Below are positions 41,387 to 53,791 of a stretch of 64,000 bases of DNA, one piece after another (the first letter of the stretch is position 1; every line of letters starts with the position of its first letter). The stretch comes from an uncultured Mollicutes bacterium (GTDB lineage: Bacteria > Bacillota_I > Bacilli_A > Acholeplasmatales > Anaeroplasmataceae): the NCBI GenBank assembly GCA_945923475.1, contig CAMELE010000005.1, positions 1 to 64,000 on the forward strand. The letters are read 5' to 3'. The notes beneath the pieces were generated by a model that made no database searches, was not told the origin of the DNA, and saw nothing but the letters and a program-made list of their open reading frames with translations. The position numbers and the translations under genes were made by a program.

Positions 41387-42370
41387 ATGACAATATATGA
41401 TATCGCAAAGGAAGCTAAAACTTCTCCCGCTTCTGTCTCAAGATATTTAAACAATATCAAAATCAAGGAAGAAACTAGGAAGAGAATAGAGGCTGTTTTA
41501 AAAAAATATAATTTTACACCGAGCGCTGTTGCAAGAGGCCTTGCATCTAATAGCTCGAAAACCATTGGAGTTATATTAATTGATATCCGACTACCCCATT
41601 ATGCTAATACTGCTTATTTCTTAGAAAACGAATTTCGTCAAATAGGATATAATATAATTATATGCAATACCCATGGGAGCATGGAAGAAACAAAAGCATC
41701 TATCAATAACTTACTATCTTATCATGTAGATGGAATTTGCTTTTTCGGTTCTGTTTTTGATAGATTAAACGAAAATTTAGAAATTTTAAATTTACTTAAA
41801 AACATTCCAATTATCACGTTAAACTTTTGCTTAAGTGTTCCAAACTCATATAGTTTAATGATTGCAGATGCATATGGTGTTGAAATTAGTGTTGAGCACT
41901 TATATAACAAGCATAGAAAAAATATATTTTTAATATATGATTCAGACACAACAAGCTCTAATGAAAAGATAAAAGGATTTAAACAGGTTATGCAAAGACT
42001 ATCTCTTAATTGGGAAAATCATATTATTAAAGTAATGCCTGGAGTTGAGGGTGGATACACTGTTTTAGAAAAACTGTTAAATTCGGATCAAGAATTTGAT
42101 GGAATTGTATGTGCCGAGGATACAATAGCCGTAGGAGTAGTTAACTCACTACAGGATGGTGGCTATGTTGTTGGCAAGGATGTTGACGTAATTGGATTTA
42201 ACAATAGTGTTTATGCAAAAATAACTATGCCTAATCTTACAAGTGTTGATACTCAAGCTGAGTATCAAGCACATATGGTAGCCCAAATGCTCCAAAGCTT
42301 AATATCAAGTAGTACTCCTATCTCCTCTATGACATATAAGCCAAATTTAGTCGTAAGAGAAAGCGCATAA
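41387..42370 (+). CDS. LacI family transcriptional regulator
   Basis: This is a DNA-binding repressor of 327 residues. The N-terminal helix-turn-helix (MTIYDIAKEAKTSPASVSRYL) and hinge helix are followed by a periplasmic-binding-protein-type sensor domain. The recognition helix is almost identical to that of the 43852-44835 protein, while the sensor domains differ more. It probably controls the uronate genes through the GAAACCGATTTC sites and responds to an intermediate of the pathway. The terminator at 42375 ends its transcript. Confidence 0.9.
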   Translation: MTIYDIAKEAKTSPASVSRYLNNIKIKEETRKRIEAVLKKYNFTPSAVARGLASNSSKTIGVILIDIRLPHYANTAYFLENEFRQIGYNIIICNTHGSMEETKASINNLLSYHVDGICFFGSVFDRLNENLEILNLLKNIPIITLNFCLSVPNSYSLMIADAYGVEISVEHLYNKHRKNIFLIYDSDTTSSNEKIKGFKQVMQRLSLNWENHIIKVMPGVEGGYTVLEKLLNSDQEFDGIVCAEDTIAVGVVNSLQDGGYVVGKDVDVIGFNNSVYAKITMPNLTSVDTQAEYQAHMVAQMLQSLISSSTPISSMTYKPNLVVRESA

Positions 42371-42511: not shown

Positions 42512-43372
42512 TTAATTAAATGAGAGCTCAGTACGATATTGTACTGGGCTTTTATACTGTAATGAGTAAGCTAAACGTTCATTGTTATAGTATTTAATGT
42601 ATTCTTTAACTGTTTTATATACATCATCAGTTTTATATAAATTATAGTCAACCGCCATTTCTTCCTTTATCCAACCATTTAATGCTTCAATTATTGGATT
42701 ATCTGTTGGAGTTCCTACTCGACTCATGGAGCGTTTAATGTTATAATCTTTATGTGTATTAGCGAATACCGCTGTGGAGTATATAACACCTTGATCGGAG
42801 TGGACAATCGTCTCAAGGTCTTTATACCCTCTTTTTATTTTCTCTTTTAGGAGTTTTCTAAGAGCTCTAATATGATTTGCCGGATTAGATCCATGTTTAC
42901 TTTTGGCTAAATCATAAGCTACTATTTCATTATTAAATGTATCTATATACAAAGTTAAATCATACGCTTGATTATGATTATAGAATATAGTTGTATCTGT
43001 AACTATAATTTCAAATGGGCGTGTAGCGTTCCAGTTATTCCATATAATATTAGGATATTTAATACTTTCTTCACCTGCTTTAGGATATGGAAGTTTTCTT
43101 GCTTTAGAATGTATTTTTAGTGTTTTACAACACTTATGGCATAAATTATTGGAGAAACTCCAACCAGTATCCTTTCTTATTTCAGCAGCAATATGTCTGT
43201 ATCCCCAAGATTTATGTTTATTATGATATTCTTTTATCATATTACATAGTAATATTCTATCGTTTTGGTACCTATTTAAGGTGCCTTTTCTTTTTAACCA
43301 TTTATAATATCCTGAACGTGATAATCCCATTGTTATACATAGTGATTCAATATTAAATTCCATGCTTAACAT
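42512..43372 (-). CDS. IS3 family transposase OrfB
   Basis: This is the catalytic half of the IS150-type transposase, 286 residues in this frame. An HTH_21-type N-terminal part (SGYYKWLKRKG...SWGYRHIAAEIRK) precedes an rve integrase core. The DDE triad is visible as Asp in IVTDTTIF, Asp in VHSDQG, and Glu in DNPIIEALNGWIKEE. It is normally made as an OrfAB fusion by -1 frameshifting. The frame stays open upstream (EFEIIEMLSMEFNIES), in agreement with that. The core looks intact. Confidence 0.9.
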   Translation of the reverse strand: MLSMEFNIESLCITMGLSRSGYYKWLKRKGTLNRYQNDRILLCNMIKEYHNKHKSWGYRHIAAEIRKDTGWSFSNNLCHKCCKTLKIHSKARKLPYPKAGEESIKYPNIIWNNWNATRPFEIIVTDTTIFYNHNQAYDLTLYIDTFNNEIVAYDLAKSKHGSNPANHIRALRKLLKEKIKRGYKDLETIVHSDQGVIYSTAVFANTHKDYNIKRSMSRVGTPTDNPIIEALNGWIKEEMAVDYNLYKTDDVYKTVKEYIKYYNNERLAYSLQYKSPVQYRTELSFN

Positions 43373-43851: not shown

Positions 43852-44835
43852 TTACGCTGATTTTCTTAAAACCAATTCCGGTTTAATTGTTATTGTTTCA
43901 ACACTTTTTGAATTCTTAATGCAATTATCTAGCATTTCAGAAAGTAGTTCTGCTTGTAATTTCGGCTTTGTATCAACTGTAGTTAATGATGGCTGTGTCA
44001 TTGATGAATACAATGTATTATTAAATCCTATAACATCCACATCAACTCCAACGCTGTAACCAAGTGCCTTTAAGCTGTTTATTACCCCAACAGCTAAAAC
44101 ATCTTCAATACATATTATTGCATCAAATTCACAAGCCATTTTTTTTAGCGTTTTAACTGCAGCAGTTCCACCATCTATTCCCGAAAATACTCTAATAATA
44201 TTCTTATCTGAATATATTCCATATCGCGATAAGGCTTCTTTAAAGCCTGCTATTTTATTTAATGCACTATCTGTATAAGAATCAACAACTAAATATATAT
44301 TTCTTCTTCCCTTTTCATATAAATACTTTACAGAAAGCTCACACCCATATTTATCGTCAGATAGTAAGCTATAGGCATTAGGTAAATTTAATTGTCCGTT
44401 TGCACATACAACAGGAATTCGTTTTAGCATATTCATTATTTCGTTATCTTCATTGAATTGATTAAAAATTGATCCGATCAATGCTATACCTGCAACATTG
44501 TATGACAAAAGATTTCTAATGTATTCGGCACTTCTTTCAAAATGATCTGCTATATTAAAAATAATAATTCTATAGCCACGTTTTCTAAATTCTTGTTCAA
44601 AAGTATATGCAGTATTAGCATAGTGATTATTTCTAATGTCAATTGTAATAATCCCAATTGTTCTCATACTTTTAGAAACCAATCCCCTAGCTAAAGGATT
44701 TGGCTTAAAATTATATTTTTTTAAAACAGCCTCTATTCTTTTCTTAGTTTCTTCTTTAATTTTTACATTGTTTAAATATCTTGAAACCGACGAAGGCGAT
44801 GTTTTGGCTTCTTTTGCTATTTCATAAATTGTCAT
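43852..44835 (-). CDS. LacI family transcriptional regulator
   Basis: This is a second LacI-type repressor of 327 residues from ATG 44835 (MTIYEIAKEAKTSPSSVSRYL). GAGGTG precedes this ATG, and a GTG at 44844 lies within that site. Its helix-turn-helix and hinge closely match the 41387-42370 protein, so both may recognise the same operator, while the effector domains have diverged (for example CANGQLNLPNAYSLL against LNFCLSVPNSYSLM). The two genes converge on the IS element. Confidence 0.9.
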   Translation of the reverse strand: MTIYEIAKEAKTSPSSVSRYLNNVKIKEETKKRIEAVLKKYNFKPNPLARGLVSKSMRTIGIITIDIRNNHYANTAYTFEQEFRKRGYRIIIFNIADHFERSAEYIRNLLSYNVAGIALIGSIFNQFNEDNEIMNMLKRIPVVCANGQLNLPNAYSLLSDDKYGCELSVKYLYEKGRRNIYLVVDSYTDSALNKIAGFKEALSRYGIYSDKNIIRVFSGIDGGTAAVKTLKKMACEFDAIICIEDVLAVGVINSLKALGYSVGVDVDVIGFNNTLYSSMTQPSLTTVDTKPKLQAELLSEMLDNCIKNSKSVETITIKPELVLRKSA

Positions 44836-44904
44836 ATCGCTCACCTCGCAATTATAGTTATTCTCTATATAAATATTAGCACATTTTTGAAATAAATAAA
44901 ATAC

Positions 44905-44976
44905 TAAGCCTAGGGAACTAGCTATTTCTTCATCTTTATATTCACCAGCATGACCGCATCTAAAAGTATGTGTATG
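44905..44976 (-). pseudogene. Fragment of a PHP-domain (histidinol-phosphatase type) gene
   Basis: A 24-codon frame on the minus strand begins with HTHTFRCGHA and continues with GEYKDEEIASSLGL. This is the N-terminal metal-binding motif of PHP-family phosphatases. A TAG stop lies directly before the first His, and everything after LGL is unrelated. It is a truncated relic between the MATE gene and the LacI gene. Confidence 0.55.
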
Positions 44977-44980
44977 CTAA

Positions 44981-46330
44981 TTATTCTTGTACTTCACTTG
45001 TAGATACCTCAACATCAAATATATTTATCTTATTTCTTCTTAATAAGAACCAATAAGCAGCAAGTGATACAACTGTATCAAATGCATTACCAATACCAAA
45101 TAATAAGGCTATACCGATTAAAGAAGGTGTCCATACACCTGTTACATATAATATGACTGCTATACCATAATATATTGAATTAGTAACTATTGATTCAAAT
45201 AACATATAATGTGTTTTACCCAAACCATAGAATGTAGCGTCAAATACATTTTGAATTGCATATAAAATATAGAATCCAAATAATACCATTACTAATTCAA
45301 ATAATTTATCTACATCACTGAAATTTAATACATGAGTCATAAATGGCTTATATAGAGGTATTAATATACACCAAGCTAATATTGTTATTGTAGTAATTGT
45401 AAAATAACCAAGTGTATTATTTTTAACTGCATTTTTATTTGATGATGTTTCTTGTTTAATTAATTCTCCTAATTGAGTGATAGGAAGTAACATCCAACCC
45501 CAAATAAAATTATTAGCAACCCAATATGTACCTTGTTCATTTACTACATTTACCATTCTAGCAATCATTACCATATAAGCTAGATTTCTAACAAATGATT
45601 CTAAACCTGATATTCCACCAACTCTAGCAAATTCTTTTGACCAAGTAAATGACATCTTCTCTTTATTAAATACATTTACTCCATTCTTAGCTAATAAGAA
45701 TAATGTAGTACCAAATATAATAAAATTAACAATTATATTTGTTACACCGATACCATTAACACCCAAGTTTGCAGAACATGATAATGTTGAAACTAAGAAT
45801 AAATCTAAGAACACACATAATACTAATTTAACACCAGTTAAAATATAAACTAATTTATCTTTTCCAAGTGTTACTAATCCAACTAATGCAAATTGCGATA
45901 ATATTCCAAATACATTCGCTATTGCTTCTATTCTAATATATGTAGCTGAAGCATCTATAATAGATGGATCAGTTGCCATAGCTTTTAATAATGGATTAGT
46001 ACAAGTCATTATAAATATGGATAATATTATATAAATTCCTAAAGTAATCAATAAACCTGTTTTCATTCTATTTGTTAATTCTTTCTTATCAGACAAAACT
46101 TTACCAACAAAATAGAATAAAGGTAATATAATTGCTTCATTAATTACTTCATATATTAAATTAATCCATGATAATTGACCAGCAATTGAATAAGACCAAT
46201 CACCAGGAAAATTTCCTAACCAAAATACTCTTAATGTAGTATAAATAGTTGGAACTAATCCCATTACTAGAAGTGAAATAAATAATTTGTGATTAATATT
46301 TTTAAAAGATGTTATAAATTTGTTTAGCAT
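44981..46330 (-). CDS. MATE family efflux transporter
   Basis: This is a multidrug and toxic-compound exporter of the MATE/MOP superfamily with about twelve membrane helices, normally driven by Na+ or H+. The start is ATG 46330 (MLNKFITSFKNINHKL), with AAGGAGA upstream, giving 449 residues. An upstream ATG at 46360 lies before this site and overlaps the XRE gene. It is the last gene of an operon led by two large XRE proteins, which makes it the likely output of that system. Confidence 0.82.
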   Translation of the reverse strand: MLNKFITSFKNINHKLFISLLVMGLVPTIYTTLRVFWLGNFPGDWSYSIAGQLSWINLIYEVINEAIILPLFYFVGKVLSDKKELTNRMKTGLLITLGIYIILSIFIMTCTNPLLKAMATDPSIIDASATYIRIEAIANVFGILSQFALVGLVTLGKDKLVYILTGVKLVLCVFLDLFLVSTLSCSANLGVNGIGVTNIIVNFIIFGTTLFLLAKNGVNVFNKEKMSFTWSKEFARVGGISGLESFVRNLAYMVMIARMVNVVNEQGTYWVANNFIWGWMLLPITQLGELIKQETSSNKNAVKNNTLGYFTITTITILAWCILIPLYKPFMTHVLNFSDVDKLFELVMVLFGFYILYAIQNVFDATFYGLGKTHYMLFESIVTNSIYYGIAVILYVTGVWTPSLIGIALLFGIGNAFDTVVSLAAYWFLLRRNKINIFDVEVSTSEVQE

Positions 46331-46349
46331 TTTTTCGTTTTCTCCTTTT

Positions 46350-47498
46350 CTATTTTTCAAATCTAATCATCATATCTTTTAAATATTGAATTGGATTATC
46401 ATTTTTATTATTAACCAAAGATTTTAAATATTTAGTTTCTTCAAAATCTGTCGCTTCCTGATAATCTTTTAAACTATAATATTTCCAATATTTTAATGCA
46501 TGAATGCTTTCATGACCTCCGGCATTCATATAACGATTTAAATATTCTAATTTTTCATTATTTTGTTTTTCATAGAGTATTACATTGCCTTCAAGCATTT
46601 TAAATTCATCAAAATCAATGGAATCTTTGGCATAAATATTTTTATGTCTCAACATACAATTACATCCTCCATTTAACATTACTTTAAAAAATGATATTCT
46701 TTCTATTTCATCATAAGTATAGTCAACAGTTTTTGTATGTGTAGATGTAGTAAATCCATTAAAAGATTCTTCTTGTACTTCATGACTTAAATTAACTGTA
46801 AGCAAAGCATCCTTAAGAGGTTGATTTTCAACGGTAAGAAGAAACTCTAAAAATTTCATGTTTTTGCTTTTAGCTATTTCATCTCTTTTTAAATCAACAG
46901 CAAAATCATAACATTTAGATAATTCCCAATCAAATTCATCAGATGCTAAATGCTTTAATTTTTCAAATTGATTTTGCATATGTTCTTTTTCCATATCACC
47001 AAAAAATATTTCTCTCATTCTGGGATTATTTGTTTTAGTGAATGAAGCATATGCATCATCAAATTTAAAGTACTTTTTTATAAAATCAAACTCTTCTATT
47101 TGGTCTTGATTTAATTCATCATTAGTCCATAGAGGAAGCAATTTATAAAATCTATTTATAACCATATTACAATGTTCAAAAAACTCTTTTACCAATTCTA
47201 TATTATTATTACAAATTAGGGTATGTAAATCATAATTAGTTAGATCATAATTTCTCTTCCAATAATCATAATTAGTTTCTTTTTCTAACCTACCATTTAT
47301 TAGTTCTTCAACGGTAATATCAAAGTATTTTGCAATTTTATATAACAACTCTGTTTTAATTCCACTACCACTTTCCCATTGCGATACTGCAGCCTTAGTA
47401 ACACCTAACACTTTAGCCAAATCAGGTTGCTTCATATTTTTTTCCAATCGTAATTGTTTTATTAAATTTCCTACTATATCAAAATCAATATTATTCAT
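46350..47498 (-). CDS. XRE-type regulator with large unknown C-terminal domain
   Basis: This is a 382-residue protein from ATG 47498, with GAGGT upstream. Residues 8-62 form a helix-turn-helix (KQPDLAKVLGVTKAAVSQWESG). The remaining 310 residues are helical and charged with no recognised domain, and include a Cys pair GGCNCMLRHKN and NAGGHESIHALKYWKYYS. The start overlaps the stop of the upstream XRE gene in ATGAATAA, so translation is coupled. It lies 19 bases before the MATE gene. Confidence 0.7.
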   Translation of the reverse strand: MNNIDFDIVGNLIKQLRLEKNMKQPDLAKVLGVTKAAVSQWESGSGIKTELLYKIAKYFDITVEELINGRLEKETNYDYWKRNYDLTNYDLHTLICNNNIELVKEFFEHCNMVINRFYKLLPLWTNDELNQDQIEEFDFIKKYFKFDDAYASFTKTNNPRMREIFFGDMEKEHMQNQFEKLKHLASDEFDWELSKCYDFAVDLKRDEIAKSKNMKFLEFLLTVENQPLKDALLTVNLSHEVQEESFNGFTTSTHTKTVDYTYDEIERISFFKVMLNGGCNCMLRHKNIYAKDSIDFDEFKMLEGNVILYEKQNNEKLEYLNRYMNAGGHESIHALKYWKYYSLKDYQEATDFEETKYLKSLVNNKNDNPIQYLKDMMIRFEK

Positions 47499-49011
47499 AT
47501 CTAACCTCTGGTGCAAAATACTTGTTTCGAATTTCATCTAATGACAATAAATCAATTTCTTTTAATAGTTCTTCAGTCTTAGGATTCTTTCTAAGTCTAA
47601 TCAACTCGTCTCTTGTGGTGAATTGATTCCAAAAATAGCAATAATCTATTAAATCATCACAATTTTTACCACCACAAAACTCATCAACTGTCACAGGTTC
47701 ATAAATCTCTCCTGCATTTAATTTAGCAAGAAGTTTGTCATACTCATCTAATCCCTCAGCGATTTCTTTTTCCTTTGTTTTATATTCATCGAATTTTTCT
47801 TTAGCATATCTAATACGCCAACTTAAATCACTAAAAATATATTTATCCTCTCGATTGATATCAATATTATCTTTTTTAGCAGCATTAATTAACATATCTC
47901 TAGTAAACTCATCATTATTAGAAACCAACTCATATAATTCTTCTAATGAATAATCAAACGTAGTGATTAAATCATAGTAACAATTATGGATGAACCTATT
48001 TTTAGAATTATTTTCAGCACTATACTTTAAAGGTTCAGACGGATTATCTTCATTATAAACCTCCCCCTTAATAGGCTCTTTACATAAATGATATAACTCT
48101 TCCACACGATCAATAATCCTTCTTTGAACTGTTTTTCTTTTTATAAAATTTAAATAGTGGTTATTTAATCTAGCTCCATTTTTGATCATATATTTCAAAA
48201 TATCTTTAGTAATTTGTTCTTTATTAAATTCATGACCTGTTCTTTCCTCATATTCTTTTAAGTGATTAGAACCATATGAAGCTTCATCAACAGTTACAAA
48301 GTCATAGACTTGAAAACACATTAATAAAATATCTTTTTGCCAAAATTCTAATTTTTTAAATTTCTTATCAGTATCTCCCTCTAGTTTGGGACATTGATTT
48401 GAAATCGTATTGATGTTAAATAATAATTCTTTTTTTGGCATAATAAGTTTCTTTAATTCCCATATTTTTTCTTCATCATCCATATTCGTAATTTGGAATA
48501 AGACTTTTTTAATTACATTTTTCAAAAATAAATATTCATCTTTCTTATCATATTTAAATTCTGATACACAATACTCTGATAAATTATAAAAATTCTCAAA
48601 CAAAAATCTAAATTCGCGCTCCTCATTAATCGTAAAATCATTTTTAACCCTATAATGTAATAGCTTATTAAAAGTATCAATTACAAGATTAATTTGTTCT
48701 TGATTTGCAATATAAGTGTTTCCAATATAATTCGATATCCAATGTTCATCAGTTATGAAATATTTCTTCGAAAAATCAATATCCTGTTTTCTTTCCCCAT
48801 CTAATATTTCATCAATACTAACATTATATACTTCAGCAATTTCCCTTAAATTTTCAATTTCAGGAATAGTTTTACCATTTTCCCAATCACTTATGGCTTT
48901 TGATGATATAGTTAAATACTTTGATTTTAAAATATTAGCCAAGTCTTGCTGAGTCATCTTTTTTTCATCTCTTAGGCTCTTCAAAAAAGAGCCCATTTTA
49001 TTTTTATTCAT
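47491..49011 (-). CDS. XRE-type regulator with large unknown C-terminal domain
   Basis: This is a 506-residue protein with a helix-turn-helix at about 8-65 (MTQQDLANILKSKYLTISSK...SDWENGKTIPEI), followed by about 440 residues of unknown type rich in charged and aromatic residues. It is far larger than usual XRE repressors, so the C-terminal part may sense a ligand or bind a partner. The start overlaps the upstream gene in ATGAATAA, the same overlap as at its own 3' end. Confidence 0.7.
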   Translation of the reverse strand: MNKNKMGSFLKSLRDEKKMTQQDLANILKSKYLTISSKAISDWENGKTIPEIENLREIAEVYNVSIDEILDGERKQDIDFSKKYFITDEHWISNYIGNTYIANQEQINLVIDTFNKLLHYRVKNDFTINEEREFRFLFENFYNLSEYCVSEFKYDKKDEYLFLKNVIKKVLFQITNMDDEEKIWELKKLIMPKKELLFNINTISNQCPKLEGDTDKKFKKLEFWQKDILLMCFQVYDFVTVDEASYGSNHLKEYEERTGHEFNKEQITKDILKYMIKNGARLNNHYLNFIKRKTVQRRIIDRVEELYHLCKEPIKGEVYNEDNPSEPLKYSAENNSKNRFIHNCYYDLITTFDYSLEELYELVSNNDEFTRDMLINAAKKDNIDINREDKYIFSDLSWRIRYAKEKFDEYKTKEKEIAEGLDEYDKLLAKLNAGEIYEPVTVDEFCGGKNCDDLIDYCYFWNQFTTRDELIRLRKNPKTEELLKEIDLLSLDEIRNKYFAPEVRYE

Positions 49012-49402
49012 TGAAAGCCTCCCAAATTTGCTTTTTTGTTTCTATTAATAATTCATAATATTTTATTCTTTGACCATTTCTTCTCTTTTTATATCTCTTT
49101 TCCTTTTCAGGCTCCCTCATAATATCTTTAGGATTTACAGCTTTTAAAATGATTTGTTCCTGCTTACTATGAGCTTTGAAATAAGAGTCTTCAGCCATCA
49201 TTTTGCATCCAACCGAATAATCTTCTAACGAAATCTTCTCAACCGATTTAATGGCAAATTTTTGATTATGTTTAACTCTACCTTTATTTCTTACATCTCT
49301 AGCAGCTTCTCGACCATCTTCAGCTTTTACATAGAATGCTTTAAGGATGAAGTTATTTCTGCCAACATGGCCGCATTTAGCTAAAACTTTATAATAGTTC
49401 AT
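49004..49402 (-). CDS. Small basic protein with CGHVGR motif
   Basis: This is an unrecognised 132-residue protein. I choose ATG 49402 (MNYYKVLAKCGHVGRNN), 9 bases after AAAGGAGA. A frame opening at 49468 would run through the promoter. Residues 8-70 form a compact region (YKVLAKCGHVGRNNFI, KAEDGREAARDVRNKGRVKH, FAIKSVEKISLEDY) of a conserved-hypothetical type, and the C-terminal 45 residues are strongly basic. It is the first gene of the XRE-XRE-MATE operon. Confidence 0.65.
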   Translation of the reverse strand: MNYYKVLAKCGHVGRNNFILKAFYVKAEDGREAARDVRNKGRVKHNQKFAIKSVEKISLEDYSVGCKMMAEDSYFKAHSKQEQIILKAVNPKDIMREPEKEKRYKKRRNGQRIKYYELLIETKKQIWEAFNE

Positions 49403-49429
49403 ATGTCGTTCTCCTTTCTTACAATTTTG

Positions 49430-49458
49430 ATTATAATTTCCAACGCAAGAAAAGTGAA
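49430..49458 (-). promoter_or_regulatory. Promoter of the XRE-MATE operon
   Basis: On the minus strand TTCACT (49453-49458) and TATAAT (49430-49435) have a 17-base spacer, followed 27 bases later by the start of the CGHVGR gene. Confidence 0.6.
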
Positions 49459-49837
49459 CGTCTATCAATTTTACTTATTTTTTAATCATTATAATTTAGT
49501 TAAATTTTACTTCATTTTTATTAAAAATTCAATTATTAAACTATACACAATGCAAATCAAAATAAAAATCAAGGCGTAAAAAAATAAATTCGGATTCCGC
49601 ATTTGGGAATTTTTAACGAAATCCCACTGTAAAATTTTTGACGCCACTAATAGCGGGTGAAACAGCGTTACTATATACAACATTGGTTAGCATGATTATT
49701 ATTGTTTGCTGTATGTGCAGCATTGTTGTCTTTTTAATTTATTTAAATACAAATCAATTTTTCTTTTTAATATACTATCACCAGCTATTCATTATAATAC
49801 TTTCACAAAATTCCGTTTTAAGGAAAATAGGCGACAA
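49459..49837. other. AT-rich spacer with a folded element
   Basis: No convincing gene is present. At 49573-49645 GGCGT and ACGCC, each next to a run of A or T, enclose about 60 bases with two alternative inner stems (ATTCC / GGGAAT and GGGA / TCCC). A TTG-started + strand frame (49638-49856) encodes a hydrophobic peptide but runs into the terminator repeat and has no ribosome binding site. Confidence 0.5.
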
Positions 49838-49932
49838 AAAAAAGACCCAAGGTTGAGAAGTCCTTGAGTCTTTTTGAATAAATCCAAATGAATATTTGTT
49901 TGTAAATAACTGTAAATTAACGCTTAGAGAAT
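49838..49932. repeat. 95-bp direct repeat, copy A (rpsI 3' end and terminator)
   Basis: This segment equals 51311-51405 except for one base. It contains the last codons of rpsI (FSKR and stop on the minus strand) and its terminator hairpin, but no rpsI body follows. It is most simply read as the distal attachment site left by an element that integrated at the 3' end of rpsI. Confidence 0.9.
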
Positions 49933-50259
49933 ATACCTTAACTTAAATACAATTAATTAATGTCTAAAAAAACGACTTGAATACAAGATGTTTTTACTAT
50001 TTTATTTATTGATGCTATCAGAATAATTAGGCAACTATTAGGCAACCAATTCTTTCTTTATTTATTTTTCTTATATTCATTTACTATATTATTGAAAATC
50101 ACTCTAAGTATATAATGATTTCATTACTCAGCATTCATTATATTGAATTATAGAATGAACAAATTAAATACAACTTAATATAACCAAAAAATAATAGCAA
50201 ATTATTATTTGATTTGGAATAAGATGTACGTTTAAAACATACTAAATTTTAAACAAAAA
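49933..50259. other. AT-rich non-coding stretch inside the repeat-bounded segment
   Basis: No gene is seen. Two direct copies of TTAGGCAAC/TAGGCAACC lie 11 bases apart at about 50026-50045. Short direct repeats of that kind can be arm sites of integrases, but two copies prove nothing. Confidence 0.4.
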
Positions 50260-50433
50260 CTAATATAGTTCTCCATCTGAAGAAAGCTCTAAAGTTCCTT
50301 TTAGATAGTTTTCTATATCTTCATCCACTAAAGCAATAGTATCATTACTTAAAATATAACTTCTATTTTCGCTATGAAACACTTCTTCTACCGACATAAC
50401 ATCAATAACTATATCCGTTGATAAATCAACCAA
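50260..50433 (-). pseudogene. Short coding remnant, 57 codons
   Basis: A minus-strand frame ends in TIALVDEDIENYLKGTLELS plus a few residues and a TAG stop. Residue use looks coding (VDLSTDIVIDVMSVEEVFHS). Two in-frame TGA codons precede it, and neither the TTG at 50433 nor the ATG at 50397 has a ribosome binding site. It is probably the 3' end of a truncated gene. The family is not recognised. Confidence 0.35.
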
Positions 50434-50463
50434 GTATCATCATAAACATTATTAAATTTTTTT

Positions 50464-51018
50464 TCATACTATTTCAACATATTTTAATTTTAATCTAGAA
50501 GGAAAAGAGTATTCTTTTATAGCAACATCATTTATTGTAAATTTTTTTAACGATATAAATATTTGATCAGCTTCGAAATCACATTTATCTTCAGAATAGT
50601 AATTAGAATTAGAAATTTCTAAAACCATTATAACAAAAGAATTCTCACATTTTATCAAATTTGAAACATCTAACTTAATGTAGTATCTATCAATTTGATC
50701 ACCAACTTTTTTTTGAGATTCAAAAGTACAATAAACGCCTTCTTCTTTTTCGTTTTCAATAAAAAAATCGACATAATAAGATTCATTATTTTTTCTATTG
50801 GTTAGTAAATTGGTATCTTTATTTTCGATATTTTCTTTACTAAAATCTAAAGATATATATTTAATGTCAATATCATTATAGAAATTAAAGCTTTCTCCCG
50901 AATACTCGTATTTTCCTTCTGTAAAAGTGAATCTTTCTTGTTTAAAACAAGAAGCTAATATGAGGCAAAAAAGAAATGCAACCAATACTAAAAATAGTTT
51001 ATTAAATCTCCTTAACAT
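50464..51018 (-). CDS. Predicted lipoprotein, unknown function
   Basis: This is a 184-residue protein with a lipoprotein signal: basic MLRRFNKLF, hydrophobic core and lipobox LILASC with Cys24. The mature part (about 160 residues) is predicted to be mostly beta-strand and has no recognised domain. It would be anchored to the outer face of the membrane. AAGGAG lies 11 bases before ATG 51018, and a promoter is seen at 51136-51165. It is the only intact gene between the two rpsI-end repeats, so it was probably acquired. Confidence 0.7.
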   Translation of the reverse strand: MLRRFNKLFLVLVAFLFCLILASCFKQERFTFTEGKYEYSGESFNFYNDIDIKYISLDFSKENIENKDTNLLTNRKNNESYYVDFFIENEKEEGVYCTFESQKKVGDQIDRYYIKLDVSNLIKCENSFVIMVLEISNSNYYSEDKCDFEADQIFISLKKFTINDVAIKEYSFPSRLKLKYVEIV

Positions 51019-53146: not shown

Positions 53147-53791
53147 ATGGAAGATATAAGACAAATACTTGCAGACAATTTAACAAAGCTTAGAAAGGCA
53201 AACAATTATACCCAAATTGAACTAGGCAAAAAATTAGGTTTTACTGATAAAGCAGTATCCAAGTGGGAACAAGGGGATACAGTTCCAGATATAGAAACAC
53301 TAAAAAAATTATCTGATTTATATCATGTATCTATTGATTCCTTACTTGATGAATCCCCTATTGAAACTAAGATTAATACTAAGGAAAAAAATAAAATTAT
53401 CACAAATAAAATTATTATTACCCTTATGTCCATAACATTAGTTTGGGCAACAGCACTAATTCTATTTACCCTGGGTGTTTTAGGGGCTGAGCCTACATAT
53501 GAATGGAAACTATTCATATGGGCATTACCAATTACCTTCATAGTAATTTTGATTTTTAATTCCGTTTGGGGAAGAGCTAGATATAATTATGCTATATCAT
53601 CTGGTTTGATGTGGATGGTATTACTTGCGTTTCATCTACAGCTTCAAAGAGATTATATGTGGATGATTTATCTTTTAGGAATTCCAGGTCAAATCGCAAT
53701 CATTCTTGCTAGTCAGCTAACTGTAACTAGAAAGAGCGAAAAACAGCCAAAAGAAAAGAAACGTGAACAAAAAGACAATAAAGGAGAATAA
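53147..53791 (+). CDS. XRE-type regulator with C-terminal membrane domain
   Basis: This is a 214-residue protein with a helix-turn-helix at about 10-65 (YTQIELGKKLGFTDKAVSKWE, ending in VSIDSLLDE), then a hydrophobic domain of four helices (about 90-195) and a basic tail. Membrane-tethered XRE proteins of this build are common in Firmicutes, and their signals are mostly unknown. No ribosome binding site is seen and the promoter abuts the start codon. It may control the divergent 52369-53025 gene or itself. Confidence 0.82.
   Translation: MEDIRQILADNLTKLRKANNYTQIELGKKLGFTDKAVSKWEQGDTVPDIETLKKLSDLYHVSIDSLLDESPIETKINTKEKNKIITNKIIITLMSITLVWATALILFTLGVLGAEPTYEWKLFIWALPITFIVILIFNSVWGRARYNYAISSGLMWMVLLAFHLQLQRDYMWMIYLLGIPGQIAIILASQLTVTRKSEKQPKEKKREQKDNKGE

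Follow-up and report, generated by a model that had tools for sequence, protein, structure and literature searches.

A candidate sensor cassette of a CGHVGR protein and two large XRE regulators ahead of a MATE exporter gene in an uncultured Mollicutes bacterium

What is the role of an operon that places a small CGHVGR family protein and two large XRE-type regulators directly ahead of a MATE exporter? Such an operon lies in the 64,000-nucleotide stretch analyzed here (the window; positions 1 to 64,000 of contig CAMELE010000005.1, from an uncultured Mollicutes bacterium of the Anaeroplasmataceae). Regulated efflux operons are common; distinct in this one are a conserved three-gene regulator, two large unclassified XRE proteins (XREa and XREb), a candidate dyad operator and an unannotated partner protein. 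We favor the reading, to which we give about an even chance, that the locus is an autoregulated sensor cassette (CGHVGR-XREa-XREb) with an exchangeable 3' output gene, here the MATE gene. If the output gene is swappable, poorly studied gut Bacilli would have in this cassette a natural plug-in switch. A literature search on Anaeroplasmataceae, XRE and MATE efflux turned up no publication on this locus.

The operon, its relatives and its gene junctions

All four genes lie on the minus strand and run in one direction, from the CGHVGR gene (49004..49402, 132 aa) through XREa (47491..49011, 506 aa) and XREb (46350..47498, 382 aa) to the MATE gene (44981..46330, 449 aa from its ATG). The MATE open reading frame (ORF) as listed opens at a TTG at 46360; the ATG at 46330 was used as the start. 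We found the first three genes in the same order and orientation in five copies: the window copy (C5), a second copy on another contig of the same genome (C89), one each in two further genomes of the family (G044 and G007), and one in an uncultured Bacilli genome (L079). Pairwise identities among these cassettes are 47-55% for CGHVGR, 38-61% for XREa and 38-52% for XREb. The coupled operon leading into an exporter, which a preliminary description had proposed from the sequence, is real, with a conserved three-gene unit at its front.

Full-length relatives of XREb occur in three of the 55 genomes of the family (the window's own genome, G007 and G044), and in the same three of the 160 genomes of the order. 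Across the class, the XREb model passed E 1e-12 in 74 of 395 genomes, with only four rows, from three genomes, spanning the model; the remaining rows cover the helix-turn-helix (HTH) range, apart from a C-terminal fragment in G245. In a companion search of 392 genomes 16 passed, and again four rows were full length. The G245 fragment is a relic of the XREb C-terminus beside an IS30-like transposase gene (labeled by eye) and a C5 methylase gene. A scan of genome contigs, in which 80 of 245 relatives were kept and three covered the protein, added L079 and recovered G044 as JAIDZC (Anaeroplasmataceae) and G007 as JAEELJ (Acholeplasmatales); a single-sequence query of the genome contigs found nothing. 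In viral contigs the XRE proteins gave no more than HTH-range matches, and in plasmid and phage records no more than partial, N-terminal ones.

As had been noted, the same eight-nucleotide overlap, ATGAATAA, joins CGHVGR to XREa (49004..49011, minus strand) and XREa to XREb (47491..47498, minus strand). The geometry is kept at the first junction in four of the five cassettes (a 1-nt gap replaces it in G007) and at the second in all five. Of the 29 co-directional junctions listed for the window, only these two can be read as 8-nt overlaps. With 11 occurrences in the window, counted on both strands, the octamer is not a rare word in itself. At both overlaps a GGAGG-like (Shine-Dalgarno-like) sequence inside the upstream gene precedes the downstream start, and each gene can therefore be initiated separately. 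XREb and the MATE gene are separated by a 19-nt gap, with no overlap, and the MATE gene has its own AAGGAG. The fixed stoichiometry that had been read from the overlaps is thus not borne out. An Rfam search of positions 44500-50500 found nothing, and a scan for sigma-70 patterns was uninformative (41 found, 38.9 expected).

A dyad element upstream of the first gene

In all five cassettes a 31-bp element, AAGTAAAANTTAAC-N12-RTTAA, starts 107-115 nt before the first gene. In the window it reads AAGTAAAATTTAAC-N12-ATTAA (49482..49512, minus strand), starts 110 nt before the CGHVGR start codon and contains the dyad TTAAC-N12-RTTAA. The second half-site follows at exactly 12 nt and is GTTAA in four cassettes and ATTAA in the window. 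The element supplied the only word of the form 6N4 common to all five upstream stretches, and none of 1000 Markov-shuffled sets shared any such word; a second half-site at a common offset was found in none of 20000 shuffled leader sets. Both shuffle tests were designed after the motif had been seen; the 6N4 test nevertheless covers all words of that form.

Outside the cassette promoters the element is almost absent. A search of ten genomes for exact AAGTAAAANTTAAC gave six sites, namely the five cassettes and one more in the L079 genome, within an ORF about 3 kb upstream. There was no exact site in the six genomes without a close cassette, and a reversed pattern, used as a control, was found 1-4 times per genome with both strands summed. 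Nor was the element found at the other loci examined, among them the CGHVGR genes that lack this pair of XRE genes. In four of the five cassettes (by eye) the element comes directly after a TATAAT-like, TAAAAT-like or TATAAA-like word. We read the element as a candidate operator of the cassette itself, near its transcription start. The recognition helix of XREa carries KAIS in C5 and G044 and NAIAE or NGINE in the other three, and its type covaries with the variable operator base (T versus G). This covariation is only suggestive and may reflect one event, since C5 and G044 are close (XREa 46.7% identical).

On the favored reading, XREa and/or XREb would bind the dyad as dimers and repress a single promoter. 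Their large helical C-terminal parts would sense a signal, be it a protein, a peptide or a small molecule, which would release the XRE proteins; the whole operon, the MATE gene included, would then be expressed, and the MATE protein would export a toxic agent. A regulator-plus-exporter operon is plausible because there is a conserved three-gene unit, a dedicated element, and a MATE gene of the same family in four of the five cassettes.

Several observations weigh against this reading. The dyad is imperfect in the window, where the second half-site is ATTAA and not GTTAA; three more distant CGHVGR-XRE-XRE loci do not have the element; and five sequences are a small sample. The element could instead be a promoter or an RNA signal; the predicted leader RNA hairpin is weak (-1.1 kcal/mol). 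At the other end of the operon, the MATE gene, with the gap before it and a ribosome site of its own, could be read from another promoter, and G044 has no MATE gene at this place, an RNase III-like gene following XREb instead.

The MATE gene and the two XRE proteins

The window MATE scored 523.3 bits against NF045539 (MATE_efflux1, MATE family Na+-driven efflux transporter; cut-off 350), matching model positions 1-410 of 411, and by its sequence is assigned to that family; the MATE proteins behind C89 and L079 scored 534 and 361 bits. A MATE gene follows XREb in C5, C89, G007 (where the contig end cuts it) and L079. We found that these genes do not share the history of the cassettes before them. 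The G007 MATE piece is 96.9% identical to that of C5 over 224 aa, whereas both XRE proteins of C5 and G007 are only 38.3% identical; in C89 and L079, conversely, XREa is 61.1% and the MATE 37.0% identical. The cassette MATEs form two lineages that are 32-38% identical to each other. On the DNA level, a MATE homology block with 91.5% identity to G007 begins at 46348 (edge at 46348..46349, minus strand), 2 nt past the XREb stop. It is the disagreement between MATE and XRE identities, together with this edge, that sets the MATE history apart from that of the cassette.

Members of this MATE family occur behind cassettes and also in cassette-free loci. At E<=1e-30 the 55 genomes of the Anaeroplasmataceae hold only five such MATE genes: three follow cassettes, that of G024 follows other genes, and the fifth lies at a contig start; a cassette-free MATE of this clade is also present in G268. 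Among 296 class genomes nine have a MATE match at E<=1e-100, seven of them outside the window's family, and no cassette lies upstream in the six of these seven with readable flanks (G347 is cut at a contig end). In G227 (L239, 3101-6172) a 486-aa XRE-type gene lies upstream of an NF045539-like MATE gene with a short ORF between them and without a CGHVGR gene, so that the XRE-before-MATE arrangement recurs in another form. In other genomes (L236, L238 and L199), MATE genes of this clade often have helicase-, nuclease- or methylase-like neighbors (by eye), which would suit genes commonly carried as island cargo.

These data also bear on the idea that the system is self-contained, sensing and exporting one specific peptide or toxin, with the MATE gene as an obligate member. 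A MATE of the same family after four of five cassettes, and the small number of such genes elsewhere in the family, would fit it; the RNase III-like gene in the MATE place of G044, the cassette-free members of the MATE clade in G024, G268 and other genomes, and the operon itself, in which no peptide or biosynthetic gene was seen (no systematic short-ORF search was made), speak against it. We consider this explanation quite unlikely. Of the sensing and export system first proposed, the pairing of regulator and exporter thus stands as plausible; its self-contained character does not, given the separate MATE history, the absence from G044, the cassette-free relatives and the CGHVGR genes in many other operons, and the MATE gene is not always present.

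Both XRE proteins have an N-terminal HTH_3 domain (PF01381), at residues 10-69 of XREa and 13-66 of XREb, with E-values of 1.2e-13 and 3.8e-14 and scores of 51.3 and 52.9 bits (Pfam gathering score 23). In this they are like other XRE/Cro-C1 regulators; they differ in their C-terminal parts, one of about 310 aa and the other of about 430 aa, for which there is no convincing curated family. Beyond the HTH, neither protein has a trusted match in Pfam, NCBIfam, PHROGs or PADLOC, in agreement with the preliminary description of 382- and 506-residue proteins with unclassified C-terminal domains. XREa and XREb are related to each other (BLASTP, 31% identity over 143 columns; hhalign, 98.6% probability over 170 columns), with the similarity spanning about residues 9-198 of XREb. 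They probably arose by tandem duplication, which could explain the like junctions.

In a structural model of XREb built from four sequences (pLDDT 78.2, pTM 0.76), the part after the HTH is mainly helical; it includes one beta hairpin, and confidence is low at residues 285-331. Residues 2-83 of the model superpose on repressor domains, with Z up to 10.3, an rmsd of 2.0 and 71 residues aligned. HTH rows filled the list of structural matches, so that the C-terminal part was hardly covered. The top full-length Foldseek rows were ComR and PrgX, at an unconvincing E of 0.024, TM of about 0.15-0.2 and rmsd of 17-22. ComR, PrgX and PlcR are RRNPP-type peptide sensors. The likeness of XREb to this group, an HTH followed by a helical sensor layout, comes from these weak rows; the fold match is unreliable, and no TPR family is among the Pfam matches, although absence from such a list says little against a TPR-type domain.

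XREa may carry ankyrin-like repeats in its large C-terminal part, a hint that comes from profile columns at about 258-289, which resemble designed ankyrins (4hqd the best of them, E 3.8e-4). No single stretch passed alone, and no Pfam ankyrin match was found in the C-terminal parts of either protein. Enzyme domains, which had been raised as an alternative for the large C-terminal parts, find no support: no catalytic family was convincing, and the XREb model consists of an HTH and a mainly helical part. Two isolated matches were taken as chance, one to Dehydratase_hem (E 1.4e-4), seen in a single one of the four XREa members, and one to a homing-endonuclease PDB profile (E 0.0085).

The long C-terminal parts are maintained in proteins of 375-530 aa at 38-61% identity, which argues for retained function. 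This conservation counts against an element immunity or maintenance role in which the two XRE proteins would be repressors left from an integrative element that has decayed, with the other genes its residual cargo. The HTH parts do resemble phage repressors, serine-recombinase-like and replication-like genes lie near the G044 cassettes (by eye), and the window has an IS3 family transposase gene at 42512-43372; however, no integrase or structural gene was seen beside the window copy, and the near-exclusive link of the dyad element to cassette promoters is a further argument against decay. We regard this explanation as very unlikely.

The CGHVGR family and its neighborhoods

The CGHVGR protein has no Pfam family and no convincing sequence match in the PDB. 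Profile searches detected it in 28 of the 395 class genomes and in 13 of the 55 family genomes, and the survey of its genomic contexts revealed a wider unannotated family whose members also stand beside nrdG-nrdD-like genes. In the family genomes 16 rows were obtained; dropping G022 (in-frame stop) and G041 (a 33-residue fragment) left 14 intact genes. Two XRE genes follow in seven of these 14, comprising four of the close cassettes, a second copy in G044, and copies in G004 and G003; in the last three the XRE C-terminal parts have no similarity to XREa or XREb. Four more are followed by nrdG-nrdD-like genes, and three by vWA-like, restriction-like or PIN-like genes (all by eye). The CGHVGR domain also forms the C-terminus of BspA-type LRR_5 proteins in six of 25 members scanned (L182, L183, L186-L189). 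On contig C38 of G044, the two CGHVGR-XRE-XRE cassettes (L197, 4910-7501; L014, 6857-9933) start about 10 kb apart and have XRE C-termini unrelated to each other; a serine-recombinase-like gene (by eye) and a GmrSD_N gene lie between them, and type I restriction genes come after.

None of 72,556 plasmids contained a CGHVGR gene, and viral contigs gave no match. One of 50,697 phages did, NatCom_17901 from human feces (L247, PV036423.1 49679-50086), where the gene is followed immediately by genes annotated as anaerobic ribonucleotide reductase and by a thymidylate kinase gene. The bacterial locus L216 has the same gene order (by eye), which hints that some bacterial CGHVGR copies may be prophage genes; several of the bacterial nrdG-nrdD neighbors may likewise be prophage.

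An AlphaFold2 model of CGHVGR (pLDDT 87.4, pTM 0.69) folds into a beta-beta-alpha-beta core with a long helix at the C-terminus. The closest solved structures are eL20/LX, to which residues 1-71 align with Z up to 6.0 (rmsd 2.3 over 63 aligned residues), and RpoY (YkzG, 4njc), with Z 4.7 (rmsd 3.2, 57 aligned); both lie below a Z of 8, in a range that the tool calls common and does not advise trusting. CGHVGR differs from both in its long C-terminal helix, and there is no convincing sequence match to either. Because the predicted core weakly resembles these proteins, CGHVGR could act as a small accessory regulator, with RNA, the ribosome or RNA polymerase as its possible binding partner. Going further, we tentatively suggest, as a somewhat unlikely proposal, that CGHVGR represents an undescribed small regulatory domain family that stands first in switch-like operons of the class and of one phage, and that CGHVGR plus a tandem XRE pair would be a new three-part plug-in sensor with its own operator, varied outputs (MATE of two lineages, RNase III-like) and lineage-variable C-terminal sensor parts.

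Restriction or candidate defense genes occur near several of these loci: GmrSD_N, HsdR and HsdM near the G044 cassette, a PDC-M26A-like AAA gene (candidate defense) near that of G007, GmrSD_N and a C5 methylase gene near the distant G003 cassette, and a type II restriction endonuclease gene and C5 methylase gene near the G245 relic. Together with the phage copy before anaerobic ribonucleotide reductase genes, they would fit a mobile anti-phage or stress-response module in which the XRE proteins would act as sensors or effectors and CGHVGR as an effector that binds nucleic acid or a polymerase, with the MATE gene a passenger of the same island. No such genes were seen by eye beside the window copy or L079, however; PADLOC matches were confined to the HTH range of the XRE proteins, with none for CGHVGR or the MATE; and the proximity is a raw observation at these loci, which may not exceed what arbitrary loci in these genomes would show. 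We hold this explanation to be unlikely and retain the sensor cassette with an exchangeable output gene as the favored reading.

Elsewhere in the window, the IS3 family transposase gene lies between two LacI-family regulator genes that face each other (41387-42370 and 43852-44844), and another XRE-type regulator of 214 aa is encoded at 53147-53791, near ribosomal protein genes (labeled by eye).

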